A stretch of DNA of 64,000 nt from an uncultured Clostridia bacterium (GTDB taxonomy: Bacteria > Bacillota > Clostridia > Christensenellales > Borkfalkiaceae), in contig CANQSR010000002.1 in assembly GCA_947626575.1 (NCBI GenBank), positions 124,001 through 188,000 on the forward strand, read 5' to 3'. Below the pieces are notes generated by a model, which was given only the letters and a program-made list of their open reading frames with translations, was not told the origin of the DNA and did no database searches. The translations under genes were made by a program, and so were the position numbers. Below are positions 51,201-64,000 of this stretch, piece after piece (within the stretch, counting starts at the first letter, position 1; the number at the start of each line of letters is the position of its first letter).

Positions 51201-51523
51201 TTGATATCGGTGAGTTTGAGCATGGCGGGTGCGCCGTGTTCGGGCGTACCGTTTCTGGGATGTTTGGAGGGACGGGGCGCCGACGCCGCCTTGGAAGGTT
51301 GCGGCTGTTGCGGCTGTGCGGGCGCGGCCCCGCCGTTTTGCGGGGCGGACACGGTGCGCGCGGGCAGTCCGCAGGGCTGCTGCGGATATGCGCCGTAAGC
51401 GACGGGCGGTATCACATAGATCCCGCTGTGCTGCGCGTTGCCGTAAAGCACGGGCGAACCGCAATAGGGGCAAAAATTGCTCCCGTCTGCAAAATACCTG
51501 CCGCATTTCATACATTGTGCCAT
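48251..51523 (-). CDS. MacB/FtsX-type ABC exporter, ATPase and permease fused, with N-terminal zinc ribbon
   Basis: This 1,090-residue protein begins with a zinc ribbon (two C-x2-C knuckles in the first 21 residues) and a Pro/Gln/Ala linker to residue 98. The ATPase domain has Walker [10 protein letters not shown], signature L-S-G-G-Q and Walker [13 protein letters not shown]. The permease has one membrane helix near residue 370, a large extracytoplasmic region of about 500 residues, and three C-terminal helices (FtsX domain). This order is that of lipoprotein or peptide mechano-exporters. GAGGAG precedes the ATG. It is regulated by the adjacent MarR gene by inference. Confidence 0.92.
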
Positions 51524-51582
51524 ATAATATATTTACTCCTCTTTGATGAAAGCCGTCTTACTCAATCTGCAAACCGTCTTGC

Positions 51583-52032
51583 TCAATTCTGCACCGCCGT
51601 GCGCGCACGGGAGAGCGCATCCGCAAATTCATCGTACACGGAAATGAGCAGTTTCATCTTTTCCGTTCCGAGTTCTTCCACCACCCGCTCCATGATGGCG
51701 TTCGCCTGTTTGCATTGCTCCTCGAAGATCCCGTAGCAACGGTCCGAAAGTTGGATATAGGCGATCTTGCGGTCGTTCGGCGCGGCGACGCGCTTGACGA
51801 TATCCTGTTTTTCGAGCTTGGTGACGATCTGCGAGACGGCAGACCGCGTGACGCCGAGACGGCGCGAAAGCTCGGAGGAAATGATCCCGTTCCCCTTTTC
51901 ATGCTCCATGACAATCTCACGGACGAGACGGAATTCTGTTTTGGAGAGCTTCGCCGCATCCGAAAAAAGATTGAGATCCTCCATATCTTTCAGCGTTTGA
52001 AATAGTTTCAGAAGATATTCATTGATTTCCAT
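51583..52032 (-). CDS. MarR family transcriptional regulator
   Basis: This 149-residue winged-helix regulator has a recognition helix in S-R-R-L-G-V-T-R-S-A-V-S-Q-I-V and the wing A-A-P-N-D-R-K, both typical of MarR. AAGGAGGGGATCT precedes the ATG at 52,032. It lies 59 bases upstream of the ABC exporter on the same strand with its own promoter. It probably represses this unit and responds to an exported compound. Confidence 0.9.
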   Translation of the reverse strand: MEINEYLLKLFQTLKDMEDLNLFSDAAKLSKTEFRLVREIVMEHEKGNGIISSELSRRLGVTRSAVSQIVTKLEKQDIVKRVAAPNDRKIAYIQLSDRCYGIFEEQCKQANAIMERVVEELGTEKMKLLISVYDEFADALSRARTAVQN

Positions 52033-52103
52033 AGATCCCCTCCTTTTCGGATATTTTACAGGATGCACGCAGAATGCGGGCCTGCCGCATTTTGAATATC
52101 CAA

Positions 52104-52132
52104 ATTATACCCAAATCGCTTAGCAAAGTCAA
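52104..52132 (-). promoter_or_regulatory. Promoter of the MarR-ABC unit
   Basis: TTGACT and TATAAT are 17 bp apart on the minus strand. GGATATT just after the start and AATATCC near the ribosome site could pair in the leader. Confidence 0.8.
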
Positions 52133-52166
52133 CAAAATGACCGTACAAAAGCGTAATATTCACAAT

Positions 52167-53330
52167 TTATTCACATGCGTCATCCGTATGCGGGCGCGGA
52201 GCGTCCTCCGCCGGCGAAGGTTTCTTGCCGAAATAGGCCAAAAGCGAGCATTTGAGGTCGGCATTGTAGAGGATGCGCTTTTTATCGGGCCGCCCGAAGG
52301 CGCGGTCCATGCCCCCGTAAGCCGTGAGGATATAGGCGCTCCAATCGGGGAGCGCGCGGAACATTTGATGAAAATCACGGTAGAGCGGGAAGAGGTCCTC
52401 CCCTCTCTGCATGCGTTCCCCGTAGGGCGGGTTGGAAATGAGAACGCCGCAACGCTCCTGCGCCGTGAAGCGGCGCGCATCCCCCACCGAAAAGGAGATA
52501 TCCTGCACAACGCCCGCCCGCCGCGCGTGTTCTCTTGCGATGTCCACCGCGCGGGCCGAGATATCCGCGGCATAGACGGGCGCAACGGGTCCGCGGTATT
52601 CCAAGCTCTCCGCCTCCGAACGGGCCGCATCCAATACGCCCTTGGGCGTGCATTTCCAATGGGCGAAGTCGAAATCCCGCGCCTTGCCGGGGGCGATGTT
52701 TCTCGCATACATGGCCGCCTCGACGGCAATGGTCCCGCTTCCGCAGAAGGGGTCGGCAAACGCCTTGCCGCGGTGGTAAAACGAATCCTCGACGATGGCG
52801 GCCGCCGTCGTCTCGCGGAGGGGCGCATCATAGGTCAGCACGCGGTATCCGCGCTTATGCAGTCCGTCGCCCGAAGTATCCAGCGTGAGCGTTGCGATGT
52901 CGCCGAAGACGGAAAATCCCACGACGGCGCGCTCCCCCCTCTCATCCAACGTATGCACGAAAAGGCGCTCTTTGAGACGGTCCACGATTGCTTTTTTCAC
53001 GACGCCGCCCGCCGCCTTCACCGCGCCGAGCTTGCTTTGAAAACTCTTGCCGTCGATCAGAATGCGGGCATGCGCGGTGAGATACTCCTCCCACGGAAGC
53101 GCGCGCACGCCCTCATAGAGCGCATCGAACGTCTCCGCGGGGAAGCGGCCGATTTCGATCAGAACGCGCTCGCCGCCGCGCAAAAATACATTGAGACGGG
53201 CGACTGTATCCCAGCCGCCCGAAAGTTCTATCCGACCGCGTATCGCGGGGGCATGTCCGAGATCCATGCGCAAGATCTCGCGTTTGACCGCGGCTTCGAT
53301 GCCCGTTGCCACGGCAATTTGCAGCTTCAT
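52167..53330 (-). CDS. THUMP-domain RNA methyltransferase (YpsC/RlmL-like)
   Basis: This 387-residue protein has an N-terminal THUMP RNA-binding domain (residues 1-165), then a Rossmann methyltransferase. G-D-G-L-H-K-R-G-Y-R marks the junction, D-P-F-C-G-S-G-T-I the SAM loop and S-N-P-P-Y-G-E-R-M the base-methylation motif. It most resembles 23S rRNA m2G methyltransferases. I chose the ATG at 53,330 with CGGAGGAAAAA. It follows the CNNM gene. Confidence 0.9.
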   Translation of the reverse strand: MKLQIAVATGIEAAVKREILRMDLGHAPAIRGRIELSGGWDTVARLNVFLRGGERVLIEIGRFPAETFDALYEGVRALPWEEYLTAHARILIDGKSFQSKLGAVKAAGGVVKKAIVDRLKERLFVHTLDERGERAVVGFSVFGDIATLTLDTSGDGLHKRGYRVLTYDAPLRETTAAAIVEDSFYHRGKAFADPFCGSGTIAVEAAMYARNIAPGKARDFDFAHWKCTPKGVLDAARSEAESLEYRGPVAPVYAADISARAVDIAREHARRAGVVQDISFSVGDARRFTAQERCGVLISNPPYGERMQRGEDLFPLYRDFHQMFRALPDWSAYILTAYGGMDRAFGRPDKKRILYNADLKCSLLAYFGKKPSPAEDAPRPHTDDACE

Positions 53331-53347
53331 TTTTTCCTCCGTTGCGG

Positions 53348-54412
53348 TCATTCCTCCGTTTCGTCCACCGACTCCGCATCCACGGGTTCGGGAACAAACG
53401 GATGGATGGGTTCGGTATCCGGCGTAAGGTCGTATTTGTCGTCGATGTCGCCGCCCAAAAGTTCCTCGATCATATCCTCGCGGGTGATGAGGCCGAGTGC
53501 GTTGCCCTCGGAGCCGACGATCACCATGTGTTCGCGCATCGTCTGCATCCGTTTCATGAGATCGGAGACCTTCTCGTCCGTCGTCGTATAGGACATGGGA
53601 CGGATGATGTTCCCGAAATCCCTGCGGCCCGCGAGCAGGTTTTCATAGAAGTCGGCGCGGTACAATACGCCGATGATGTTTTGCTTGGTGCCTTTATAGA
53701 TGGGCAGGCGCGAAAAGTTGGTCTCGCGGAAGATCTTATAGATGAGGCGGGAACTATCGCGCACCTCGGCGAGGACTACCCTATCGAGCGGGATCATGCA
53801 GGAACCGACGTGCAATTCGTCGTAGCGCAGGGTGCGCTTGATGAGTTCATGCTCGGTGTCGTTCAAAACGCCCTCCTCGCGGACGTCGGAGACCAGCATC
53901 TTGAACTCTTCCTCGGTGTATTTCTTTTTCTTCTTATCCAGCCCGAAGATGAGGAACAGGAGCTTCTTCCACCAGCCGAACAGATAGGAAAGCGGCCAGA
54001 AGAGGATGGTGAACACGAACAGCGGATAGGCCATGAAACAGGCGAAATTTTCAGGCTCCTCTTTCGCGAGCGTCTTGGGCGTGATCTCGCCGAAGATGAG
54101 AACGACGACGGTGAGGGCCACCGTCGAGACCGTGGGGCCGAGGTCCCCGCCGATCAATTTTGTAAACAATACGGTGGCGATAGTCGCCGCCGCAATGTTT
54201 ACGATATTATTCCCGATGAGAAGCGTTGTGAGGACTTTATTATAGTCCTCGCTCATGGAGAGCGCGAGGCGCGCCGTCGGACGCTTTTGGGCATAACGGC
54301 GCATCCGCACCGTGCTGAACCCCGTATAGGCCGTCTCCGTAGCCGAAAAACAGCCTGAGAGAAAGATGAGTATGATGAGTGCGACCAACAATCCTATGTC
54401 GCTACTGTCCAT
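53348..54412 (-). CDS. CNNM/CBS-domain membrane protein (HlyC/CorC family), lacking the C-terminal CorC domain
   Basis: This 354-residue protein has four hydrophobic segments in an N-terminal CNNM domain (G-C-F-S-A-T-E-T-A and I-F-G-E-I-T-P-K-T), then two CBS domains (residues 200-325) and a Pro/Glu-rich acidic tail. Relatives of about 430 residues carry a further CorC/HlyC domain that is absent here. A role in magnesium or cobalt efflux is known for the family and inferred here. Confidence 0.88.
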   Translation of the reverse strand: MDSSDIGLLVALIILIFLSGCFSATETAYTGFSTVRMRRYAQKRPTARLALSMSEDYNKVLTTLLIGNNIVNIAAATIATVLFTKLIGGDLGPTVSTVALTVVVLIFGEITPKTLAKEEPENFACFMAYPLFVFTILFWPLSYLFGWWKKLLFLIFGLDKKKKKYTEEEFKMLVSDVREEGVLNDTEHELIKRTLRYDELHVGSCMIPLDRVVLAEVRDSSRLIYKIFRETNFSRLPIYKGTKQNIIGVLYRADFYENLLAGRRDFGNIIRPMSYTTTDEKVSDLMKRMQTMREHMVIVGSEGNALGLITREDMIEELLGGDIDDKYDLTPDTEPIHPFVPEPVDAESVDETEE

Positions 54413-54452
54413 GGAAAAACAGATCCTCCAAAGCGGCTTCCGCCGTTATTTT

Positions 54453-55958
54453 TTATTTACTGAGAAACACTGCGCGCAGAAACACTTCAAGGCCGTAATT
54501 CCACACGGCGAAATCGTGTTTGCCGCCGGGGACGGATGCAAGCGTCAAGTGCTTGATGACGTCCTCTCCCGCGGAAGCGAGGGCCTCCGAGAGCGCAGTG
54601 TAACAGGGATAGGAGAGCACATCGTCCTCGCCGCAGATGAGGCAAAGCTCATCGAGCGGCACGCCGCCCGCGCGGATGGCGCCGATGACCTCTTCGCCCG
54701 TCTTGGTCGTGGGGCCGCAAGAGAACGCGCCGACGCTTGTAAACAGCTCCGCCATCGAAGAGCCGAAGTTGACGGCCTGCATGCCGCCCATCGAAAGCCC
54801 CGCCAGCGCACGGCCCGCGCGGCCTTCCACCACGGAGTAGGCGCCCTCGACGGCGGGAATGAGGTCTTTTCTCAATTCCTTATCGAACTTATAGAACCCG
54901 CGCACGTTGTCGGTCATGACGATCTGGCCGCCGAGAACGGTACTCGTGCGGTTGCGGAAATCCGTACACGCCCTGCCGTTAGGCATGACAACGATGACGT
55001 CGCAGATTTGGCCCTCCGAAATCAGGCGGTCGAGTACGGCCGCACAGCCGCCGTTCGTCCACTCGGTCTCGTCGCCGCCGATGCCGTGCAACAGATATAA
55101 CACGGGATACCGCTTTTCAGCCGTGTATCCGTAAGGGAGATAGACGAGCGCGCGCTTTTCGGGAGAACCCTCGATGGCCGTCGCCCTGTAATAAAGTTCC
55201 TTAATTTCGCCGTGACGGTCCTCCGCGGGAACTTCTTCGGCCTCCTCGGCAGGAGCAGTCTCCTCAACAGGAGCGGCCTCCTCAGCGGGAGCGGTCTCCT
55301 CGGCAGGAGCGGTCTCCTCGGCAGGAGCGGCTTCCTCGGCGGGAGCGGCTTCCTCGGCGGAGGCCTCCTCAACGGGAGCAGTCTCCTCGGCAGGAGCGGC
55401 CTCCTCGGCGGGGGCGGTCTCCTCGGCGGGAATCTCCTCAACGGGAGCGGCCTTCTCGGCGGGAGCGGTCTCCTCAACGGGAGCAGTCTCCTCGGCGGGG
55501 GCGGTCTCCTCGGCGGGGGCAGTCTTCTCGGCGGGAGTCTCCTCAACGGGAGCGGCCTCCTCGGCGGGAGCGGTCTCCTCGGCGGGAGCGGTCTCCTCTG
55601 CGGGAGCGGCCTCCTCGGCAGGAGCAGTCTCCTCAACGGGAGCGGTCTCCTCAACGGGAGCAGTCTCCTCGGCGTCTGCTTGCTTTTGCGCAAACGCGCG
55701 GCGGCATTGCAACTTCACGCGAAGCGGGATGCCCTCTTCCGGGTCCGCGCCGCGCCACGATAATCCGAAGAGAGGGATCGCCTGCGTCTTTTCAGAAGGC
55801 GTATCCTCGGACATGGTAGCCTCATTTTCGGCCGCGGGTTGCTTCGGCGAAGCATCTTCGCCTGCCGACGGAGCGTCTTTACGGGTAAACGCAACGCTCA
55901 AATATGCCGTGTACTCTTCCTCGCCGCCCGCTTCCGGGGTCCGGATCTCCTCTTCCAT
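54453..55958 (-). CDS. Putative esterase with N-terminal Glu/Ala/Pro hexapeptide repeats
   Basis: In this 501-residue protein, residues 1-95 are acidic and residues 95-238 are about 24 units of the pattern E-[TA]-A-P-[AV]-E. The alpha/beta-hydrolase domain begins near residue 250 and resembles CE1/esterase D enzymes: Y-L-L-H-G-I-G-G (oxyanion), G-L-S-M-G-G (nucleophile Ser), C-G-E-D-D (acid) and G-K-H-D-F (His). There is no signal peptide, so it should be cytoplasmic despite the surface-protein-like spacer. GGGAGGAAGAA precedes the ATG. Confidence 0.88.
   Translation of the reverse strand: MEEEIRTPEAGGEEEYTAYLSVAFTRKDAPSAGEDASPKQPAAENEATMSEDTPSEKTQAIPLFGLSWRGADPEEGIPLRVKLQCRRAFAQKQADAEETAPVEETAPVEETAPAEEAAPAEETAPAEETAPAEEAAPVEETPAEKTAPAEETAPAEETAPVEETAPAEKAAPVEEIPAEETAPAEEAAPAEETAPVEEASAEEAAPAEEAAPAEETAPAEETAPAEEAAPVEETAPAEEAEEVPAEDRHGEIKELYYRATAIEGSPEKRALVYLPYGYTAEKRYPVLYLLHGIGGDETEWTNGGCAAVLDRLISEGQICDVIVVMPNGRACTDFRNRTSTVLGGQIVMTDNVRGFYKFDKELRKDLIPAVEGAYSVVEGRAGRALAGLSMGGMQAVNFGSSMAELFTSVGAFSCGPTTKTGEEVIGAIRAGGVPLDELCLICGEDDVLSYPCYTALSEALASAGEDVIKHLTLASVPGGKHDFAVWNYGLEVFLRAVFLSK
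55243..55674 (-). repeat. In-frame tandem repeat of 18-bp units (about 24 copies)
   Basis: About 21 units are 18 bp and three are 15 bp, all encoding variants of E-T-A-P-A-E, so the frame is always kept. Units differ at Thr/Ala, Ala/Val and Glu/Lys positions. Confidence 0.9.
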
Positions 55959-55993
55959 TGGTTCTTCCTCCCTGTACTTACTATGATATTTCT

Positions 55994-56022
55994 ATTATAC
56001 AATGGTTTTGCGAATTTTACAA
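55994..56022 (-). promoter_or_regulatory. Promoter of the esterase gene
   Basis: TTGTAA and TATAAT are 17 bp apart on the minus strand, giving a leader of about 29 nt. Confidence 0.75.
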
Positions 56023-56042
56023 GGTTATTTCATAAAAAATTT

Positions 56043-56903
56043 CTATTTTCTCAAAAATTCCCGCAGGTAGGCGCGGACACTGTGCGCGGCAACGCATCCC
56101 TCGCCCGCCGCTTTTGCATATTGGTAAGGCCGCCCCGTGACGTCGCCAGCCGCAAACAGGCCCGCAAGATTTGTCTTTAATGCGCGGTCCACCTTCACGT
56201 GTCCCTCCTCCGTCTCCAATCCGAAGGCGAGCGCGGCGGGGGGAACGGAATTTTTGAGGAAAAAGACGCCGTCGGTTTTCAGTACCCCATCCTCCAAAAC
56301 CAACCGCTCCACGCGGCTTTCTCCCTCGACCGCAACGGGCCGCTTTTCGACGGCGGCAATGTTTCCGCCGCTCAGCGCGCTTCCCCTGTACAGCGGGATG
56401 AAAAAGACGTTTTTTGCAAACTGTGCGAGGTATTGCACCTCGGCCTCGAATTTGGGCGACGAGACCACGGCCGCCACCGTCTTGCCGCGGTACAGTGCGC
56501 CGTCGCAGACGGCGCAGTAGCTCACGCCCTTGCCGAGAAATTCCTTTTCGCCGCGGATGCGGCCGCCCGCCTCCACGCCCGTCGCCAAGATGACGGTGCG
56601 CGCGAGATACAGTTCGCCCCCGTGCGAGAGCGTGAAATTGTCGCCCGTGCGGTAGATCCCGTCGATGCGTTTGGGGGTCAAGGCGATTTTTTCCGACCCC
56701 ATCTGCGCATTCAGACGTTTTGCAAAGTCTGCGCCGTCTCCCGTGACCGTCGGGAAATTGGTAATTTTTTCGGCGAGGCGCAACTTGTCGCCGAAGCCCT
56801 CTTCGCCGAACCAAATGTAATCGAGGAGTAAATTTTTGGAGGTCAGCGCGGCGGTATAGCCTGCGATCCCGCCGCCAACAATGGCGGTATCATAGAGTTT
56901 CAT
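56043..56903 (-). CDS. Thioredoxin-reductase-like flavoprotein without the NADPH-binding motif
   Basis: This 286-residue protein has the FAD motif V-G-G-G-I-A-G at residues 9-15, the redox pair C-A-V-C near residue 132, and the FAD closing motif F-A-A-G-D-V-T near residue 250. In the central domain, where NADPH-dependent enzymes have G-G-G-x-S-A and H-R-R-D-x-F-R, this one has V-S-S-P-K-F and no arginine cluster. It may take electrons from another donor, as ferredoxin-dependent clostridial homologues do. The protein is about 25 residues short. No thioredoxin gene is adjacent. Confidence 0.88.
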   Translation of the reverse strand: MKLYDTAIVGGGIAGYTAALTSKNLLLDYIWFGEEGFGDKLRLAEKITNFPTVTGDGADFAKRLNAQMGSEKIALTPKRIDGIYRTGDNFTLSHGGELYLARTVILATGVEAGGRIRGEKEFLGKGVSYCAVCDGALYRGKTVAAVVSSPKFEAEVQYLAQFAKNVFFIPLYRGSALSGGNIAAVEKRPVAVEGESRVERLVLEDGVLKTDGVFFLKNSVPPAALAFGLETEEGHVKVDRALKTNLAGLFAAGDVTGRPYQYAKAAGEGCVAAHSVRAYLREFLRK

Positions 56904-56954
56904 ATGATCGATTTTGCCCCTTTTGCGGCATTTTCACACCGCTTTGCCGTTTTA

Positions 56955-56983
56955 AGTATACTCTTTCCGATGCGGACTGTCAA
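56955..56983 (-). promoter_or_regulatory. Promoter of the thioredoxin-reductase-like gene
   Basis: TTGACA and TATACT are 17 bp apart on the minus strand. The -35 box sits inside GGACT-GTCA-AGTCC (56,974-56,987), a possible operator. Confidence 0.82.
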
Positions 56984-57105
56984 GTCCCGCAAGCTCTTTC
57001 GGGCGGTGCGGCGCGAAAAATACGCGCCCAAAGCCCCGCGGCGGAAGCCGACCTTCCGCGCGCAAAAGATTTTTACGGAAAAATGCGAAAAGCGTTGGAA
57101 AACGG

Positions 57106-57134
57106 TTGCATTTTTGCTTCAATTCGTGTAAAAT
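57106..57134 (+). promoter_or_regulatory. Promoter of tRNA-Ser
   Basis: TTGCAT and TAAAAT are 17 bp apart on the plus strand, about 38 bases before the tRNA. Confidence 0.7.
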
Positions 57135-57171
57135 AAAGAGGCTTTCGATAGAATCATGGAAACCTAAGCAT

Positions 57172-57262
57172 GCAGAGATGTCTGAGAGGCTTAAGGAGCG
57201 CGATTGGAAATCGCGTGACGGTGGTGAATCGTCCGGAGGTTCGAATCCTCTTCTCTGCGCCA
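57172..57262 (+). tRNA. tRNA-Ser (GGA)
   Basis: This 91-nt class II tRNA has the acceptor GCAGAGA/TCTCTGC, anticodon loop TTGGAAA (anticodon GGA), long variable arm, T-loop TTCGAAT, discriminator G and an encoded CCA. Its 3' end borders the accessory region, the usual place for integrative elements. Confidence 0.97.
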
Positions 57263-57272
57263 ATATTTAGTG

Positions 57273-57310
57273 GTTAGGTGGGAGTATTACCACAATATAT
57301 CCCACCTAAC
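57273..57310. repeat. 11-bp inverted repeat just after tRNA-Ser
   Basis: GTTAGGTGGGA and TCCCACCTAAC flank a 16-nt AT-rich loop. Two direct TGTACCAA boxes follow, 11 bp apart, near 57,353-57,372. This fits an element end with recombinase or regulator sites, but no attachment repeat partner is visible. Confidence 0.55.
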
Positions 57311-57415
57311 AGCTAAATTTACACAACAAACATTCAAAGCGATTTCTTGAATGTACCAAGTTTGTACCAAAACCCATTGCACTGAGCCGCTTCACTTTTG
57401 TGGGGCGGTTTTCGT

Positions 57416-57622
57416 TTACTTTGCGAGGAGCTTTTTAATGCGACGCATCTCACGCCAAGTGGGAGTTGCTTTGTCAAGCTCAAACAATCCGATCCGCAAA
57501 GTGCTGACTTTTACTTTCTTCCCAAGGTCGCTGTAAGATAAGTTATGCTCAATCCTGTATTTTCGGAGCTTCAACGCAAACTCCGAATGCTGAATGTTTG
57601 TGGTTACTTTCTCTGCTCCCAT
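57416..57622 (-). CDS. Small XRE-type HTH protein
   Basis: This 68-residue protein has the helix-turn-helix L-S-Y-S-D-L-G-K-K-V-K-V-S-T-L-R-I near residues 28-44, followed by E-M-R-R-I-K-K. The second helix is less canonical than in the XRE gene at 44,261. AAGGGGGCCG precedes the ATG. It is last in a run of small minus-strand genes and is probably the element's own regulator. Confidence 0.72.
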   Translation of the reverse strand: MGAEKVTTNIQHSEFALKLRKYRIEHNLSYSDLGKKVKVSTLRIGLFELDKATPTWREMRRIKKLLAK

Positions 57623-57643
57623 TTTCGGCCCCCTTGGAGTTCG

Positions 57644-58042
57644 TTATACGATGTAGTCGAGTTGTAACTTTATGTCCGACGGGACATTGTCACTCCAAAC
57701 ATACCTGTTTTTCAAAACATAATTATTATAGGTGGAAGCGGTTTGGTTGGCGCGGATCTTGGCACTGTTTGCCCAGCTCCGCTCCTCCTCAACTTCGCTT
57801 TCCTTATACTGCTCATAGATGAGTTTATCGGAGTTGAAGCTGGCGATCATGGCGCGGCAGGTATCTTCGACTTTCCTCCGCGTCTCATATGCGCTTTCAT
57901 CAACCGTTTTCAAGCTGTTCTTCCAATCGACGATGATCTGCTTCCCTGCGGGTGTTGCCCCGAAGAAGATGCCGATGCTGACTGCTACTACGCCAAGTAG
58001 TACACCGATAGTAATCAACACGGTGGCGACCGTCTTTTTCAT
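57644..58042 (-). CDS. Hypothetical single-pass membrane protein
   Basis: I do not recognise a family. It has 132 residues, with one hydrophobic segment at residues 5-29 next to a K-K start, then a mostly helical charged domain of about 100 residues. The segment is either an uncleaved anchor or a signal peptide. It sits six bases after the lipoprotein gene and 21 before the XRE gene. Confidence 0.7.
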   Translation of the reverse strand: MKKTVATVLITIGVLLGVVAVSIGIFFGATPAGKQIIVDWKNSLKTVDESAYETRRKVEDTCRAMIASFNSDKLIYEQYKESEVEEERSWANSAKIRANQTASTYNNYVLKNRYVWSDNVPSDIKLQLDYIV

Positions 58043-58048
58043 AGTTCG

Positions 58049-58624
58049 TTACCCCTCCGTTTTGAGAATTGGATCATCAACCGTAAACGGAATATCGGAG
58101 TAAAGGAAATCGCCTGTCCATTCGATATATTTCCCATCGGTCGTAAAGAAGAAGATTCCGCTTGTATTCTCGCCATAGCAACCGTCAATGCCGGCGACTT
58201 CTACCAAATCGTAATAGCAATTCCCGCTGCCATCTTCATCGTGTACATGCTGAGGATATTCTGCGGGGAAGAGATAGCTGTTGAGACTTGACACCTTGCC
58301 GTCCACGATAAAGCGCCCCATAACGGCGCCGCTTGCCGAAAAAAGAACGATGTAGCCCAACGGCTTTTCAACGGGGCAAGGAAGCGATATTGCCTTCTCC
58401 CTTTGCCCGTTGACCCAATAAGCACGCTTGATGACGTTGTAACGTTCCAAACTATAATCAAGGTCTGTGGGTGCGGGTTGGTTCTCGATGATATGCGAGC
58501 TTCCTTCCATTGCGGTCTGCGTATTCGCCCGTTCAGGTGAAACATCGCCGCACGCCACGAAAGAGAAGAGGGCGACCAGACCGATGCAAAGTGTTAGAAT
58601 CACTGCAAAAATTTTCTTTTTCAT
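58049..58624 (-). CDS. Hypothetical lipoprotein
   Basis: This 191-residue protein has a clear type II signal: K-K-K at the start, a hydrophobic stretch, and the lipobox F-V-A-C with Cys at residue 25. The mature part has no known domain. AAGGAGAAAT precedes the ATG and directly abuts the CCA end of a tRNA-Thr gene. It is probably exposed outside the membrane. Confidence 0.8.
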   Translation of the reverse strand: MKKKIFAVILTLCIGLVALFSFVACGDVSPERANTQTAMEGSSHIIENQPAPTDLDYSLERYNVIKRAYWVNGQREKAISLPCPVEKPLGYIVLFSASGAVMGRFIVDGKVSSLNSYLFPAEYPQHVHDEDGSGNCYYDLVEVAGIDGCYGENTSGIFFFTTDGKYIEWTGDFLYSDIPFTVDDPILKTEG

Positions 58625-58636
58625 CTTATTTCTCCT

Positions 58637-58712
58637 TGGAGCTTCAAGCGGGACTTGGACCCGCAGCCTATCGCTTACAAAGCGATTGCTCTGCCGCTTG
58701 AGCTATTGAAGC
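58637..58712 (-). tRNA. tRNA-Thr (TGT)
   Basis: This 76-nt cloverleaf has the acceptor GCTTCAA/TTGAAGC, anticodon stem ATCGC/GCGAT with loop TTTGTAA (anticodon TGT), T arm GCGGG-TCCAAGT-CCCGC and an encoded CCA. It lies inside the accessory region, 13 bp before the lipoprotein start codon. Confidence 0.93.
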
Positions 58713-58830
58713 GAAAGGCAACGAGGCTCCCCATCTCGTTCTTACAGCAAAGCAGTGTTGCCATCCACCCGGCGTCTTTCCGCCTGCCACTTTGATTTAC
58801 CGATTACTCGGAAGGACAAGATGACCCATG

Positions 58831-58903
58831 TAGGGAAGAAAGGATTCGAACCTTTGGAATGACGGGCGATACACCCGCTGCCTTACCGCTTGGCGACTCC
58901 CCA
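58831..58903 (-). tRNA. tRNA-like gene, tRNA-Gln-type body, apparent anticodon TAT
   Basis: The D arm (GCC-AAGCGGTAA-GGC) and T arm (AAAGG-TTCGAAT-CCTTT) are normal, and the 5' half resembles tRNA-Gln. The anticodon stem GCGGG/CCCGT encloses TGTATCG, so position 33 is G, not U, and the anticodon would be TAT. The acceptor has wobble and one mismatch, and no CCA is encoded. It may be a decayed or unusual mobile-element tRNA. Confidence 0.6.
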
Positions 58904-58925
58904 ATGATTTTTACGTTTCATGCAG

Positions 58926-59279
58926 TTAGGCGGACTTTTTCTTTTTCTCGGCGGGAGAAGCGCTTGCCTTTTCTGCGGCTTCCTTTTCTTGACGCGCCTT
59001 GATGTTTTCATTGAACTTCGCTTGGCACGCGTTGACCGCCTCAAAATACGCCGAGATATATTCATCTGCCATAAAAGGTATCGATGCCTGAATAGTGTTG
59101 AGGATGTTCTCATGGCGAATTTGATTGAGGAAGAGCCACCCCTCTTGACCGTTGAGTTCTTCCTGCGCGGCATTTGAAACCCGCGCGACTTCCTCGATGG
59201 CTTCGATGTGTTCCCTCGCGAGTGCGGGGATCCCGCTCTCCAACACCTTGATAATGAACTGCTTCTGTTCCTGTGTCAT
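58926..59279 (-). CDS. Hypothetical helical protein
   Basis: I do not recognise a family. It has 117 residues, largely helical, with a C-terminal tail of Lys, Ala and Glu (A-E-K-K-K-K-S-A). The start at 59,279 has AAGGAGATC upstream; codons further upstream lie in a region without coding character. Its stop is 22 bases before the tRNA-like gene, so it may be co-transcribed with both tRNAs. Confidence 0.7.
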   Translation of the reverse strand: MTQEQKQFIIKVLESGIPALAREHIEAIEEVARVSNAAQEELNGQEGWLFLNQIRHENILNTIQASIPFMADEYISAYFEAVNACQAKFNENIKARQEKEAAEKASASPAEKKKKSA

Positions 59280-59809
59280 TGTTTTGATCTCCTTATATTT
59301 TTTATTTTTTGGATTCAAAGTTATCCCACTATCGCAGGGTTCTCGTCGGATTTGTACCGAGTGTGTGATTTGCACCCAAAGGGAGATGTCCGGCTTTGCT
59401 CGGCGGCGACACCCGCCATAGGATGAGCGTTGCCGGTGGTGAAGAACGCGGGTTGTGGCCCCGCCCACGCAACGGTTTTCCCCGCTGTGCTTCGTTCAGT
59501 ATTGTTCTCCATGGAGCGAGGCTTAACGTACCCCGCGCGCATCCACGGATTTGTGCAGGTAAGCCGCCCGCGCGGGAGATGCGGGCGCTGCTTTGGACGG
59601 TTTACTCCGCCCTTCTCGTCTATTCTACTGACACGTTTTACCGACGGAAAGGTATCGTGCGGATCTCCGTGAATACTTTCCTTCACCGTATCGTGGGATG
59701 ATTTCATCACGGAGGAATACAGCGGCGGGCTTATCCGCGCCGCTCGTCATAGATTTTATCAAAAAGAAAAACAGCTCGCCGAAACGAACTGCCACAAATT
59801 GAAAAAAAT
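59280..59809. other. 530-bp stretch without a convincing gene
   Basis: Frames here have proline- and arginine-rich translations without ribosome sites. One minus-strand segment near 59,330-59,360 resembles a tRNA T arm (loop TACAAAT), but I could not fold a cloverleaf. A 7-bp AGCGGCG/CGCCGCT hairpin is near 59,730. Confidence 0.5.
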
Positions 59810-59974
59810 CTAAAAAATTTTTTTAGACGGTTTTGTGATTTCATCGTAATCGTATCCGAGGGCGACTTTAAGGATAGCATCAAAGAGTTCATCCAAACTC
59901 ATCGACGCTTCCCCCATCTTTGCCCACCGACCGCATTGCTTTCTCTTTTTGCATGTCATCGAACAACAGATCAT
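59810..59974 (-). CDS. Small cysteine-rich protein
   Basis: I do not recognise a family. This 54-residue protein has M-I-C-C-S-M-T-C followed by K-K-R-K-Q-C, giving four cysteines in the first 14 residues, then a helical M-S-L-D-E-L-F-D-A-I-L-K. The start at 59,974 has an excellent GGGAGGAAAAG site. The cysteines could bind a metal. Confidence 0.6.
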   Translation of the reverse strand: MICCSMTCKKRKQCGRWAKMGEASMSLDELFDAILKVALGYDYDEITKPSKKIF

Positions 59975-60207
59975 TTGACTTTTCCTCCCGTATTTTTGAA
60001 ATTTCGCCTTCGATTTTTGGAATACTTCACATTCGCATTTCAGTTTTAAGTTTCTGTAGGTTTCCAATCGCCCGCGTCCGACGCCGAAATTGACCGTTTT
60101 CGGCGCAGAAAGGGCGGCGGCAGGACGGTTTTGGGTGAAATGCGGCTAAATTTAAGTTGCTGGTAAGTTGCACCCATGCCGCGCGGCACCCGCAACCGAG
60201 CAGAAGC

Positions 60208-60510
60208 CTACTCGCTCGCTTTGTCCCCCGTTACCTTCGCGAACCGCTCCATTACCTCATTCGCAGATTTCAATTTTACCGAGAGCGTGAGTTGCGTTTT
60301 GTTTATCACGTCAATGATCTCTTTGATCCTGTTGAGTTGATATTCTGCGCTTTCCCAAATACACTTGAAGTCCCGCCCGTCAAAGCGGTAGACGGCGATG
60401 ACGTCATTGATGTTGACTTTCGGGACGCAGTCTAACCATTCATCCCACTTTTTATCGCTAAGAACGAATTGGCAGGTGGTTGATTGCTTGTCATCCGTTT
60501 CCACGCGCAC
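60208..60510 (-). CDS. Hypothetical protein, possible -1 frame continuation of the 60,563 ORF
   Basis: Read alone it starts at a GTG with a modest AAGGG site and encodes 100 residues, with no family I know. The frame stays open upstream past 60,563. The overlapping ORF that starts at 60,563 has a much better ribosome site and contains A-AAG-GGC at 60,519-60,525, where a -1 slip would continue into this frame to give a 118-residue protein. Confidence 0.55.
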   Translation of the reverse strand: MRVETDDKQSTTCQFVLSDKKWDEWLDCVPKVNINDVIAVYRFDGRDFKCIWESAEYQLNRIKEIIDVINKTQLTLSVKLKSANEVMERFAKVTGDKASE

Positions 60511-60563
60511 AAAATATCGCCCTTTTGAATTTGCGGTCTGCCCGCGAACTTCTCTTCCGCCAT
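60432..60563 (-). CDS. 43-codon ORF, frame 0 of a possible -1 frameshift gene
   Basis: It has a strong GGGAGGAATTG site before the ATG at 60,563. The first 15 residues end in Q-I-Q-K-G at the slippery heptamer; after that the frame-0 tail has no recognisable character. It is either the start of a frameshifted 118-residue protein or a broken gene. Confidence 0.5.
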   Translation of the reverse strand: MAEEKFAGRPQIQKGDILCAWKRMTSNQPPANSFLAIKSGMNG

Positions 60564-60648
60564 TTTCAATTCCTCCCGCTGAACTTGCGCCACTCTTATG
60601 CAGCGCCTTACAAAGTCATGCTTGGGGAAAGTGTCAAAAATTTTCCGA

Positions 60649-60683
60649 AAAAAGAAAAAAGTCGGAAGGTTCAATCTCCCGAC
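60649..60683 (-). terminator. Terminator-like hairpin upstream of the 43-codon ORF
   Basis: GTCGGGAG/CTTCCGAC (one G-U pair) with a 7-nt loop is followed by six T on the minus strand. Confidence 0.7.
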
Positions 60684-60842
60684 CACTTTTCAACCGTATC
60701 TAATTCGACACGGTTAGATTGGATGGGTCATAATGAAAGGTCACGAATTCGTGCCTTTTGAAATCGGGGTTATGCAATGTCTCCCACTGCCAGAGATAAT
60801 TTCAATCAAAGAGTATTTTGATGAAATATCAAGAAACAAAAA

Positions 60843-60876
60843 AGGCGACCTGTGGAACTCAATCCGTGAATCGCCT
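60843..60876. terminator. Bidirectional terminator after toxN
   Basis: AGGCGA and TCGCCT enclose a 22-nt loop with further partial pairing. T tracts lie on both sides. It begins 25 bases after the toxN stop. Confidence 0.7.
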
Positions 60877-60900
60877 ATTTTTTTATTCTCATTTTGCCGT

Positions 60901-61422
60901 CTATATCTCCCATCCACGCTCGCTACAATAGAAGCGCAAATTTTGCTCATCAAGGGTAAAATTACAGCACCGCGCAATAAGCTGCGGATATCCTCTTCCC
61001 GTCGTAATTCTCGTATAAAGTTTCTGCGCTTTATCCAGAATTTCCGTTCGATGAGCATTGCACCAAGTTAACTGATTGGCAAGCAATGTTTTGTACGTTA
61101 CATCCGCCGCACTGTCGCCGGGCTGGACAACAGGGTTAACGGCTGTAACAGAGTTCTTATGTACCGGTATCATGTTGTTCAGGTTGATAACCCCATAATT
61201 CCCATTGTCAATCTTGATGAAGTCAACTTGGTTCTTCATAGATTGATGCTTGGGTTTCGGAGAACTCAGCGGTGCATAGTACTCCGCCCCATTGACTTCC
61301 AGCAAAATCCCCACAAACGGGCGGTTCGCCTTCCTGTCCATGGTATATGGAACACACGGATCCCACTTGCGCAAAAAATCACAGTAGACGGTATCAATTA
61401 CATAAAACGAAAGCCTTGCCAT
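60901..61422 (-). CDS. toxN: Type III toxin-antitoxin system endoribonuclease, ToxN/AbiQ family
   Basis: This 173-residue protein matches ToxN (171 residues) along its length. F-V-G-I-L-L-E-V-N-G at residues 36-45 is followed by Y-Y-A-P-L-S-S-P-K, which holds the family catalytic Ser/Lys region. G-V-I-N-L-N-N-M-I-P-V near residue 77 and the late C-N-F-T-L-D-E segment are also typical. ToxN cuts RNA at A-rich sites and is held inactive by a repeat RNA. Here three repeats and a terminator lie just upstream, as in known toxIN loci. TTGAGGTAG precedes the ATG. An abortive-infection role is known for the family and inferred here. Confidence 0.9.
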   Translation of the reverse strand: MARLSFYVIDTVYCDFLRKWDPCVPYTMDRKANRPFVGILLEVNGAEYYAPLSSPKPKHQSMKNQVDFIKIDNGNYGVINLNNMIPVHKNSVTAVNPVVQPGDSAADVTYKTLLANQLTWCNAHRTEILDKAQKLYTRITTGRGYPQLIARCCNFTLDEQNLRFYCSERGWEI

Positions 61423-61438
61423 ATTCTACCTCAAAAAA

Positions 61439-61466
61439 TATGAGGTCGAGTTGCCCCGACCTCACC
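61439..61466 (-). terminator. Attenuating terminator between antitoxin RNA and toxN
   Basis: The stem TGAGGTCG/CGACCTCA with an 8-nt loop is followed by TATTTTTTG on the minus strand. In known type III systems such a terminator sets the antitoxin:toxin ratio. Confidence 0.88.
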
Positions 61467-61569
61467 TTTTTTCGCTCCCACTCATGGTAGGGTACACCGC
61501 TTTTTTAATTCCCACTCTACGGTAGGGTACACCGCTTTTTTCGCTCCCACTCATGGTAGGGTACACCGC
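61467..61569 (-). repeat. Three tandem 34-35 nt antitoxin repeats
   Basis: The units are 61,467-61,500 (34), 61,501-61,535 (35) and 61,536-61,569 (34). The outer two are identical. The middle one differs in the loop and in the GCG before the A run. Confidence 0.95.
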
Positions 61570-61574
61570 TTTTT

Positions 61575-61648
61575 GACGCTCACATTATAACACGAATCCT
61601 ACTCGCTGTCAAGTGGTTTGTGCCAACTTTTTTCGAAATGTGAGCGTC
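61575..61648. promoter_or_regulatory. 12-bp inverted repeat flanking the toxI promoter
   Basis: GACGCTCACATT (61,575-61,586) and AATGTGAGCGTC (61,637-61,648) are perfect complements. One arm covers the -10 box and transcription start, the other lies upstream of the -35 box. Confidence 0.7.
61584..61612 (-). promoter_or_regulatory. Consensus promoter of the toxI-toxN locus
   Basis: TTGACA and TATAAT, both perfect, are 17 bp apart on the minus strand. Confidence 0.92.
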
Positions 61649-61792
61649 ACTATATAATATGCCGATTTCCCTCAACAATTATACCGCGCCTTCCAAATCT
61701 CTGCTTGCAGGAAGTGACAAACTTTTTCGAAAAAGAAAATCGGGAAATCATCCCCGACTTCGATGCAGTTGTTATCGCCGCCAAGCGTTATT

Positions 61793-62227
61793 TCATTCCG
61801 TTAGCGGAGTATCATCTCCTCCCCCAGCAGCCGTGTTCTGTGCAGAAGCGGAAAACTCTTTCTTCTCCGCTTCTACCTTGCCGCCAACTTCCAAACGTTC
61901 TGTCCTTGATTTCAGATCTTCGACGTCCTTGCTGATCTTCTCCAAATATAGAACCATAAGAACCTGCGAGGAGATGAGAATCCGCAAAATGGCATAGGTC
62001 AATATTCCGCCTACCGCTCCACCTAACGCGTAAGCGAAAAACGTTCCGACCTCTTTTGTTTGTACTGCGATTGCTATCCCGGCAATCAAGCAGAGTACGA
62101 AGATAATAACCCCTATCACAAGCGGCAATAGCGAGAAATTCTTGAAATGCTCCTTCTGCTCCTCAATTGTCGGGTACTTATTGAATTTACCCTCGCCTTG
62201 CGCCTTTGGTGTCATTGGATTTTGCAT
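61793..62227 (-). CDS. Hypothetical two-helix membrane protein
   Basis: I do not recognise a family. This 144-residue protein has a soluble start, two hydrophobic segments at about residues 33-53 and 62-88, then a coiled-coil-like stretch (I-S-K-D-V-E-D-L-K-S-R-T-E-R-L) and a Gly/Asp tail. AAGGAGAAAGAG precedes the ATG. It lies upstream of the toxIN locus on the same strand with its own promoter. Confidence 0.75.
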   Translation of the reverse strand: MQNPMTPKAQGEGKFNKYPTIEEQKEHFKNFSLLPLVIGVIIFVLCLIAGIAIAVQTKEVGTFFAYALGGAVGGILTYAILRILISSQVLMVLYLEKISKDVEDLKSRTERLEVGGKVEAEKKEFSASAQNTAAGGGDDTPLTE

Positions 62228-62263
62228 AACTCTTTCTCCTTTGAATTTGAATCTGTTACATTC

Positions 62264-62292
62264 ATTGTACCACGCAATTCCTCAACAAGCAA
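62264..62292 (-). promoter_or_regulatory. Promoter of the two-helix membrane protein gene
   Basis: TTGCTT and TACAAT are 17 bp apart on the minus strand. Confidence 0.65.
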
Positions 62293-63217
62293 TAACTTTT
62301 GTAAAGAAAAAAACGAACAAGACCAAAGCAATGGGAAACCGAGAGACCGCAAAAGCGAAAAGGCGAACAATGGGAAAGTGAGAGGCGCTATGTGGTTTAT
62401 ACGATTCGTTTTTACTTTCCCTCGTCAAAAAAGTACCCCCTGCCCCTTTCGCCCGTCAACTCATTTACATAATATATCATTATGTAAACACCTTCCCCGC
62501 TTTCCCCGCGTCCCCTCCCTGCTTCACTGTCACCCCGATAGCAGAGGAGAGCGGAGGCGGGCGGGGCGGGGCTTGGCTCTGAACTCGGCCGCGCTGCCCT
62601 GCTCCATGAACACGCCGCCGCCGTGATGCCCTTCCTCCCCTTCTTTTATCCGTTCTCCGTCTCTTCTTGGCTCTTTGGCTTAGGTGGTTCCCGTGCTTGC
62701 CTTTCTTCTTTCGCTTGGCTTTGGTCTCGGTGCTTTCCTTGCTTATCTTTTATATATATCTTCTAACTCTCTTATATTACTTATATACATAGCTTACGTA
62801 TATATATAAACGTATATATAAACTATGGTATTATTATAGGCTTGTTTCACCACTCTTTGTAATTTTCATCAAAAAAAGAAAAAAGAATAAAGAGAAAAAA
62901 GAAAACGCGCGGGCTTTGGCTCTTGCTCTCTCCCTCTCTCTCAGGGGGCGGGGCGGTGCTATGGCTCGCGCCGTTTCTCTTGCGTCTTAGGTTGTCTTTC
63001 GTGCGGGGCTGTGGCTTTGACTCGGTCGCGGGGCTTGCGCTCCACGCTGGCGGCGGCTGTCCTTGCTCCCGTTTTTCGGGGCGCGCTTCGTCGCCTGCGT
63101 CCCTTGGCGGCTTCTCGGCTCGGCTGTACGGATCCACGGGGGGCGCGCGCTCTTACGCTCTCCCGCATCGGCTTGGGCCTTTGGGCGTCTGGTCCGATGG
63201 GCTGGGGGTGCGCCGCA
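62293..63217. other. Non-coding or uncertain region with palindrome, pyrimidine-rich and AT-rich tracts
   Basis: No convincing gene is seen. TTTACATAAT/ATTATGTAAA is an inverted repeat at 62,464-62,488. Then 62,490-62,745 is strongly C/T-rich on the plus strand. About 62,745-62,838 is an AT-rich tract with TATATA runs. From 62,900 to 63,217 the DNA is very GC-rich with several overlapping low-complexity frames. The mix resembles an origin or transfer region. Confidence 0.5.
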
Positions 63218-63511
63218 TTACTCCCCGCCGCCCCCGGCGGCTTCGGGAATTGGTAGCGGCTCGCGCTCCGTCCGTATCGGTTCACCGTCAAGCAGGGCGG
63301 CCGCCGCCCCCCGTAATACCTCCGACGGCTTCACGCCGTGCGCGCGGAAAATCTCCGCGATCCGCTCCGCTTCGTCTCGGCGGAATGTCGCCGCGATGTT
63401 TTTGAAATTTTCGCGCTGGTTCGCCTTATTTTTTTCCTTGTATGCCTCATCCGCTCGGCGTTGCGCTTCGCTCCTTTTGGGCTTCTGCGGCTCCTGCTTC
63501 GGCTCTCTCAT
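63218..63511 (-). CDS. Ribbon-helix-helix DNA-binding protein
   Basis: In this 97-residue protein, residues 1-40 are basic and Gln/Lys/Arg-rich. Then comes a strand (I-A-A-T-F-R), helix (D-E-A-E-R-I-A-E-I-F-R-A-H-G) and second helix (K-P-S-E-V-L-R-G-A-A-A-A-L-L), the ribbon-helix-helix pattern of MobC, CopG or ParG-type proteins. The tail is Pro/Glu/Gly-rich. The start at 63,511 has GGAG nine bases upstream. Iteron-like repeats lie upstream of its promoter. A role in relaxosome, partition or autoregulation is inferred. Confidence 0.75.
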   Translation of the reverse strand: MREPKQEPQKPKRSEAQRRADEAYKEKNKANQRENFKNIAATFRRDEAERIAEIFRAHGVKPSEVLRGAAAALLDGEPIRTEREPLPIPEAAGGGGE

Positions 63512-63537
63512 TGTGGGAAACTCCTTTTTTGCTTTCC

Positions 63538-63567
63538 ATTCTACCACGGCGGGCGGCGGCTTGTCAA
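63538..63567 (-). promoter_or_regulatory. Promoter of the ribbon-helix-helix gene
   Basis: TTGACA and TAGAAT are 18 bp apart on the minus strand. Confidence 0.78.
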
Positions 63568-63584
63568 GCGGCTTTCGCAGATTT

Positions 63585-63653
63585 ACTTAATTTGATAGAA
63601 AGTAACTTAATTTGATAGCTTCAATCACTTTTTGCCTTTTCTTAATTTGATAG
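63585..63653. repeat. Three iteron-like CTTAATTTGATAG repeats
   Basis: Exact 13-bp copies start at 63,586, 63,606 and 63,641, spaced 20 and 35 bp, all in the same orientation. They lie 18 bp upstream of the -35 box of the ribbon-helix-helix gene. Confidence 0.8.
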
Positions 63654-63994
63654 AATGATAATGTAAACAGGTTCTTCACTTGCCCCCCTTCGGGGCGCCC
63701 CCGCTGCTTGCGGGTTCCCTGGAAATTGACAACTTCACAGCCCCGCGCCGTTGGGAAGGGCGCGACGGTTTAAGGATTCCCCCCTGCCGCGCGGGGGTTA
63801 GGATTTGCGCGCGGGTATGTCCGGCGGGCGGTTACGGCTTGGCCCGTCGGGAGATTCAAGGGTTATAAGCCGCCGCGCCTCGCTTCGTTCGAGGGCGCGT
63901 GTGTCGGTCTGATGATGGCGCGGGTCGTTCCCCGCCGAAACGCTCACCCGTTCGGGAGAGCGTCACCGAAAACGAAAAACGGAGGTAAAACCAC
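63654..63994. other. GC-rich intergenic region, no gene seen
   Basis: It contains several short inverted repeats, for example around GGCGCCCCC and near 63,950 (GCTC … GAGC), but no supported reading frame. It may hold the promoter and leader of the gene that starts at 63,995. Confidence 0.5.
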
Positions 63995-64000
63995 ATGAAA
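63995..64000 (+). CDS. Start of a gene cut by the window edge
   Basis: GGAGGT at 63,981-63,986 lies eight bases before ATG-AAA, the last six bases of the window. Nothing about the product can be read. Confidence 0.5.

Follow-up and report, generated by a model that had tools for sequence, protein, structure and literature searches.

Three short tandem repeats lying between a consensus promoter and a small open reading frame (ORF) raise the question of whether they form, together with that ORF, a complete type III toxin-antitoxin module and, if so, whether the antitoxin is of a new kind. Systems of this sort were reportedly first classified in a paper of 2012. The locus was analysed within a 64,000-nucleotide stretch of DNA (hereafter the window), in terms of its parts, its toxin and repeat RNA, its relatives in other genomes and its surroundings.

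Architecture of the locus

Read along the minus strand from 61612 down to 60901 (the limits set by a preliminary description of this DNA, which were right), the locus presents, in this order, a promoter, three repeats, a terminator, a ribosome binding site and an ORF of 173 aa (Table 1). The perfect TTGACA-17-TATAAT promoter of that description was recovered by a consensus scan (12/12, 61612-61584, minus strand) as the single predicted promoter ahead of the repeats, and its three 34-35 nt repeats were found again as three copies (34, 35 and 34 nt), with start-to-start spacings of 35 and 34 nt. The terminator that it had placed between the repeats and the toxin gene was likewise present (61465-61440), with a stem of 11 bp, a folding energy of -18.7 kcal/mol and a z of -5.8 (equalled by 0/200 shuffles). 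Considering that the kilobase scanned holds three promoter-like sites (against 2.1 in shuffles), only one of which scores 12/12, and three terminator-like sites (against 1.1 in shuffles), we stress that it is the quality and the order of the parts that count, and not their number. The high scores of the window repeats against the unit model (Table 1) follow by construction, since their own units are part of the model; the next best place in the 64 kb reached 16.1 bits. Past toxN (at about 60837-60884) a possible further terminator was seen by eye (AGGCGA/TCGCCT, a T run being present whichever way it is read), at a place where the scan made no call.

Table 1. Features of the putative toxIN locus and the stretches that it shares with two related loci (positions are those of the window).
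Feature	Position	Strand	Basis
toxI promoter	61584..61612	-	consensus scan 12/12
Promoter elements: TTGACA 61612-61607, 17-nt spacer, TATAAT 61589-61584, extended TG		-	
toxI repeat 1, 34 nt	61536..61569	-	repeat finding; unit model 56.8 bits
toxI repeat 2, 35 nt; loop and tail variant (GUAGAGU, AAUU)	61501..61535	-	unit model 53.2 bits
toxI repeat 3, 34 nt, same sequence as repeat 1	61467..61500	-	unit model 56.8 bits
Intrinsic terminator between toxI and toxN	61440..61465	-	scan and folding
Likely ribosome binding site GAGGTAG	61426..61432	-	read from the sequence
toxN, 173 aa, ToxN/AbiQ-family endoribonuclease toxin (predicted)	60901..61422	-	PF13958, PADLOC AbiQ, PDB 4ato
Stretch common to window and L002	60834..61668	-	blastn, 837 aligned columns, 91% identity
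Stretch common to window and L003	60902-61662	-	blastn, 764 columns, 76%
13-nt perfect inverted repeat flanking the promoter, arms 61637-61649 and 61574-61586	61574..61649	-	

The toxin

The search with a ToxN profile that the preliminary description had proposed as a check gave a match of the toxin ORF to PF13958 (ToxN_toxin) over residues 4-163, at E 8.2e-47 and 159.8 bits (cut-off 25). The PADLOC AbiQ model matched as well (111.5 bits, E 1.1e-32), as did the PDB chains 4ato (6.9e-21), 2xd0 (5.2e-16), 7d8o (2.3e-15) and 4glk (1.8e-5), and no NCBIfam match was obtained at E 0.1. A toxin closer to CptN than to ToxN, as would mark a CptIN system, was not what we found: the four PDB matches at E 0.001 were all ToxN or AbiQ, and PF13958 was the only Pfam family at E 0.01. 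The assignment to a type III locus with a ToxN/AbiQ-family gene, made at first from the letters of the DNA, is thus borne out by Pfam, PADLOC and the PDB, by the order of the parts and by the covariation of the repeats, NCBIfam alone being unmatched.

The residues given as catalytic for ToxN in excerpts of PMC8860590 (Lys33, Thr52, Ser53 and Lys55) align, in the PDB matches, with Arg34, Ser53, Ser54 and Lys56, so that two are identical and two conservatively replaced; for Tyr29 of the Pectobacterium protein the same alignments offer no clear equivalent in the window ToxN. Arg in place of Lys33 is reported for some ToxN clusters in the same excerpts. As R34, S54 and K56 are invariant across 38 aligned sequences (the query and 37 of the 120 listed matches, all near relatives), this Arg appears to be typical of the subfamily, and not a mark of decay. 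Given these replacements of Thr52 and Lys33 (by Ser and Arg) and the missing clear match for Tyr29, we infer the activity of ToxN from its family.

The repeat RNA and its predicted pseudoknot

Each unit has the layout GCGGUGUACCCUACC-loop-GGGA-tail-AAAAAA, the G after it belonging to the next unit, and could fold into an H-type pseudoknot made of GGUG/UACC (with one G-U pair) and CCC/GGG. Both stems are identical in all three window units, and the middle repeat differs in its loop, in one extra possible C-G closing pair and in its tail, and in nothing else, so that the compensated changes formerly ascribed to it have to be given up. Pairs changed on both sides do occur between loci, as well as inside the array of locus L009 (CUC/GAG in unit 2 vs CCC/GGG in units 1 and 3), and not inside the window array.

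Covariation was assessed in 16 units from eight arrays. In these, 99.1% of 112 cells were paired, against 42-57% with the partner slid by 1-3 columns, a comparison in which the structure, derived from the same sequences, is favoured over its slid versions. Three pairs were changed on both sides (attained in 1/500 shuffles), in four cells (0/500), by a test whose shuffles leave the relatedness of the sequences in; these changes were U-A to C-G in L004, and C-G to U-A in L007 and L009. As for further pair types, their number was unremarkable (204/500 shuffles). The 16 units were drawn from the 28 of the alignment, leaving out L007_1, L007_3 and those with second stems of at least four pairs (units of L008, L010, L012 and L030, and G340_3). 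In a wider, hand-anchored set (42 hand-picked units with 28 distinct cores, from 19 arrays), 187/224 cells were paired, with a shuffle mean of 166.8 (sd 3.0) and 0/2000 shuffles reaching this count. Here the anchors of L006_1, L007_3, L011_3, L028_1 and L028_2 were set by hand, and five visibly mis-anchored units (L004_1, L007_3, L028_1, L028_2 and L030_3) were kept and count against pairing; not included were unsplit arrays (e.g. L014-L018, L024, L025, L027, L029) and the first unit of L011, which is partial. With the said relatedness in mind, both tests point to a pseudoknot-capable unit that is kept by covariation, as in ToxIN systems; they lend support to the pseudoknot in repeats of this group, and the locus adds a clean ToxIN example.

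Upstream of the ToxN relatives, 15/32 loci showed a self-match of 0.82 or more at a single period (the own locus included; its second copy, L001, and L026, which had no tblastn hit, are excluded from the count). Among the 17 loci below this mark, several have by eye mutually unlike units, and others no discernible array. As a separate observation, also made by eye, the units of L012, L014-L018, L093 and L095 differ in their stems and seem to keep the pseudoknot; the L095 array, with its stem-divergent ToxI units, sits in a Clostridioides phage record.

Relation to known ToxIN systems

The preliminary description had surmised that the repeats may define a new antitoxin sequence type. The Rfam ToxI model (RF02519), whose consensus we take to be of the Bt type, aligns from its first to its last position with each of the three units, at 22.9, 17.7 and 17.7 bits, where gathering requires 50 (searching 1 kb, E values ranged from 0.17 to 2.7); across the whole 64-kb window no match was found at the gathering score. 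When the loci of 13 relatives (60 kb), pECA1039 among them, were searched, the model gave nothing at E 1 (a threshold that is harsher in more sequence), meaning that a reference ToxIN also misses the Rfam gathering score. Named and annotated systems serve as the better yardstick here. As the alignment runs end to end and the repeats of ToxIN plasmids annotated in Lactococcus and Fusobacterium have the same layout, the surmise of a new sequence type is rejected, and the antitoxin is not of a new kind. Judged by its sequence, the window module is a well-formed new member of the known ToxIN family and an ordinary system.

The best PDB match of the window toxin is the ToxIN of Bacillus thuringiensis pAW63 (PDB 4ato), and Lactococcus lactis AbiQ (PDB 4glk), whose family is the one matched by the PADLOC model, comes behind the three ToxN chains among the PDB matches. 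Pectobacterium atrosepticum pECA1039 (PDB 2xd0) shares the gene order, the GGTG..UACC layout and the toxin family with the window (31.2% identity to the window ToxN), but its repeats are of a different sequence and number five full copies and a partial sixth. The array DNA is matched by four Lactococcus plasmid records (L. lactis pCV56A, NC_017483.1, and three further ones; 74.0% over 71% of the 161-base query), the repeats of which (GCGGTGAATCTCCACCATCAAGTGAGAATCAAAAAA) are laid out as in the window. The pCV56A toxin is annotated as ToxN/AbiQ-family and is 43.6% identical over 77% of the query; unlike those of the window, the Lactococcus units have UCUC/GAGA as their second stem (vs CCC/GGG), and the Lactococcus copies are plasmid-borne. 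In Fusobacterium polymorphum pKKCOM1330A (NZ_CP084160.1) the toxin is 46.9% identical over 91%, and three repeats like GTCGGTGTACTCTACCGTATAAGTGAGAACTAAAAAA score 33.0-38.4 bits against the unit model; it differs from the window by a CUC/GAG stem, a fourth unit of other sequence and a longer annotated toxin ORF.

Distribution and probable movement between genomes

Relatives of the window ToxN were recovered from 30 of the 391 class genomes, the own one included (protein search, E 1e-5), and PF13958 occurred in 1/201 family genomes, which is the own genome. Arrays matching the unit model were found in 5/391 class genomes (E 0.001) and in 3/398 phylum genomes (E 0.01; one match set aside as chance), the own genome and G035 being present in both samples. 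The match set aside (G973, E 0.0077) falls within an ORF of 692 aa that has the look of a redox protein. Units of the window type are carried by seven genomes (G634 among them), and a ToxN gene adjoins them in six, G340 being without; in G023 toxN is cut by the contig end, and in G035 the toxN match has one TGA inside. In a large protein collection 776/787 candidates matched the window ToxN at E 0.001 (best 96% identity), and distant toxin relatives turned up in 3 phage records and 160 plasmid records, none of them reaching 60% identity. Carriage by a recognised phage was considered and rejected, as no close toxin relatives were found in viral contigs and the array was unmatched in phage records; two exact repeat patterns also had no match among the viral contigs.

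The closest counterpart, L002 (a MAG contig of an uncultured Clostridia, 'Lapin'), encodes a ToxN with 96% protein identity to that of the window. The two share about 835 bp, that is, the module alone, at 91% DNA identity and in otherwise unrelated surroundings: within 3 kb on either side of toxN in L002 and L003, nothing else matched window positions 50001-64000 or the stretch from 55001 to the contig end (blastn). A gene about 2 kb from the L002 toxN has its counterpart (79% identity) in the window's genome on another contig; for a second L002 neighbour the search came back empty, an outcome that carries no weight. Considering that the module alone matches L002 in unrelated surroundings and that the toxin family occurs in 1/201 genomes, horizontal acquisition of the module is likely. 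It may have moved alone, or the sequence around it may have been replaced later; we read the match as pointing to a module that travels between genomes by itself. The unit order, B-B-A in L002 vs A-B-A-like in the window, suggests a shuffling of two unit alleles.

One arm of the 13-nt perfect inverted repeat (61574-61586) overlaps the promoter -10. Its length was reached in 0/500 shuffles of a 150-nt stretch, by a test made post hoc, with the repeat already seen; two positions are altered on both arms in L002, and in L003 the inverted repeat is not kept. By eye, a 5' hairpin stands at the same place in several other toxI leaders.

Genomic neighbourhood

The module had been described earlier as one 'of the element'. 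Among the neighbouring ORFs tested we recognised no integrase, relaxase or convincing phage structural gene, and no replicon or transfer gene, and no mobile element was recognised beside the module, though the module appears to have moved between genomes. Weak matches to phage families were given by a repressor-like HTH ORF (57416-57622, E 4.7e-6), the ORF at 63995 (a family of unknown function, E 1.2e-7), 61793-62227 (another family of unknown function, E 0.0028) and 58926-59468 (a head-protease family, E 0.0014).

The GC content dips to 0.46-0.50 at 57-63 kb, flanked by 0.57-0.64 and 0.61, and genes for tRNA-Ser, tRNA-Thr and tRNA-Ile lie at the start of this low-GC stretch (57172-58903), which is a possible insertion hotspot. 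The low GC and the tRNA genes fit a variable island. In an empty-site comparison with eight genus relatives, the aligned parts were the TrxR end and tRNA-Ser with a short flank, along with short stretches at 64.4-66.0 kb, beyond the window (L081 and L082 in both cases). At 63585-63653, ahead of the small ORF at 63995, three direct copies of ACTTAATTTGATAG (one mismatched; 0.03 expected) form an iteron-like series.

Proposed mechanism and its alternatives

We hold with great confidence, on sequence grounds, that the locus is best explained as a complete ToxIN type III toxin-antitoxin module with a mechanism of the family type. The computed basis of this reading is the order of the parts, the membership in the ToxN family, the pseudoknot kept by covariation and the compact shared module; the read-through, the cleavage and its site, the ring complex, the toxicity and the phage defence or module maintenance would follow by analogy with the family. 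One promoter would drive the repeat RNA, with most transcripts ending at the terminator and a minority reading through into toxN. The ToxN endoribonuclease would process its own precursor, the A-rich junctions (AAAAAAG) being the most probable cleavage sites, and the single pseudoknotted ToxI units so released would keep ToxN in an inactive ring. Should the RNA be lost or its synthesis be disturbed (by phage infection or loss of the module), ToxN would be set free, as happens in the family when RNA synthesis is disturbed, and would cut cellular and phage RNA. The published ToxIN scheme, as given in excerpts of PMC5086642 and PMC8860590, has the same outline: one promoter, a terminator that yields less toxin than antitoxin, a precursor RNA cut by ToxN into units and an inactive ring of units and ToxN.

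The same molecular mechanism might serve not to fend off phages but to keep the module, or its island, selfishly in place, a role that we regard as a serious contender which falls somewhat short of persuading us. It would suit a module that is, by itself, common to otherwise unrelated surroundings and that lies in the low-GC stretch at 57-63 kb, and certain type III systems do both, aborting phage infection as well as stabilising plasmids (according to excerpts of PMC5086642); yet the neighbouring ORFs tested held no recognised replicon or transfer gene, and phage defence by ToxIN has precedent (in excerpts of PMC3475682). That the module is instead a decayed, non-functional remnant, with its parts present and either unexpressed or bearing an inactive ToxN, strikes us as very improbable: the Ser for Thr52, the Arg for Lys33 and the sole copy among 201 family genomes could be taken that way, but the 173-aa frame is intact, the promoter is of consensus type, the terminator is strong, the pairs are unchanged in all three units, and R34, S54 and K56 are invariant in the 38 near relatives. 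Tandem repeats are by themselves common, but an unrelated repeat that precedes toxN by chance is barely credible when other genomes have this unit core ahead of ToxN as well, the pairs covary and the Rfam ToxI model aligns end to end.

Toxin-less and mixed arrays in relatives

Beyond the complete ToxIN module of the window, units of its type are also found in an array without a toxin gene. In G340 (a 99% complete genome), the array (L044:8652-8787, G340:C32) combines two units of the window type with a third that belongs to another ToxI type (GAGGUGUUUCGCUACC-GUUAAAU-GCGA). A search with the window protein (E 1e-5) detected no ToxN in this genome, and PF13958 gave no match in it at E 10, in a search where the controls were silent too, yet the same query matches the own genome. 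The genus of G340 comprises 14 genomes (G340 included), and the second one with window-type units is G634 (L097, G634:C406), in which one window-type unit is followed by three units of the other type and then by ToxN. The latter is 29% identical to that of the window, and a resolvase-family ORF lies beyond it.

Phage pseudo-ToxI repeats have been published that let phage escape ToxIN (excerpts of PMC3475682), which makes a chromosomal, toxin-less array of two unit types interesting. Window-type repeats might also exist without a toxin as portable antidotes, in multi-specific ToxI arrays directed against incoming ToxIN modules; such arrays would be, by analogy, the chromosomal counterpart of the phage pseudo-ToxI decoy. 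We put this forward as a speculative and rather unlikely reading, and in G340, a single genome, the loss of toxN from an old module explains the array as simply. A search of the literature for orphan type III ToxI antitoxins found nothing, which does not prove that toxin-less arrays are unreported. If functional, toxin-less and mixed arrays would open a way to test whether bacteria gather ToxI units to become immune to foreign ToxIN modules.

The G340 array is preceded by a promoter-like site (10/12; the scan gave 2 sites vs 1.7 in shuffles) and followed by a terminator-like one (1 found vs 0.3 in shuffles). The ORFs nearest to it encode a response regulator, a histidine kinase and a D-Ala-D-Ala carboxypeptidase-like protein, the array being placed between the two-component pair and the carboxypeptidase-like gene.
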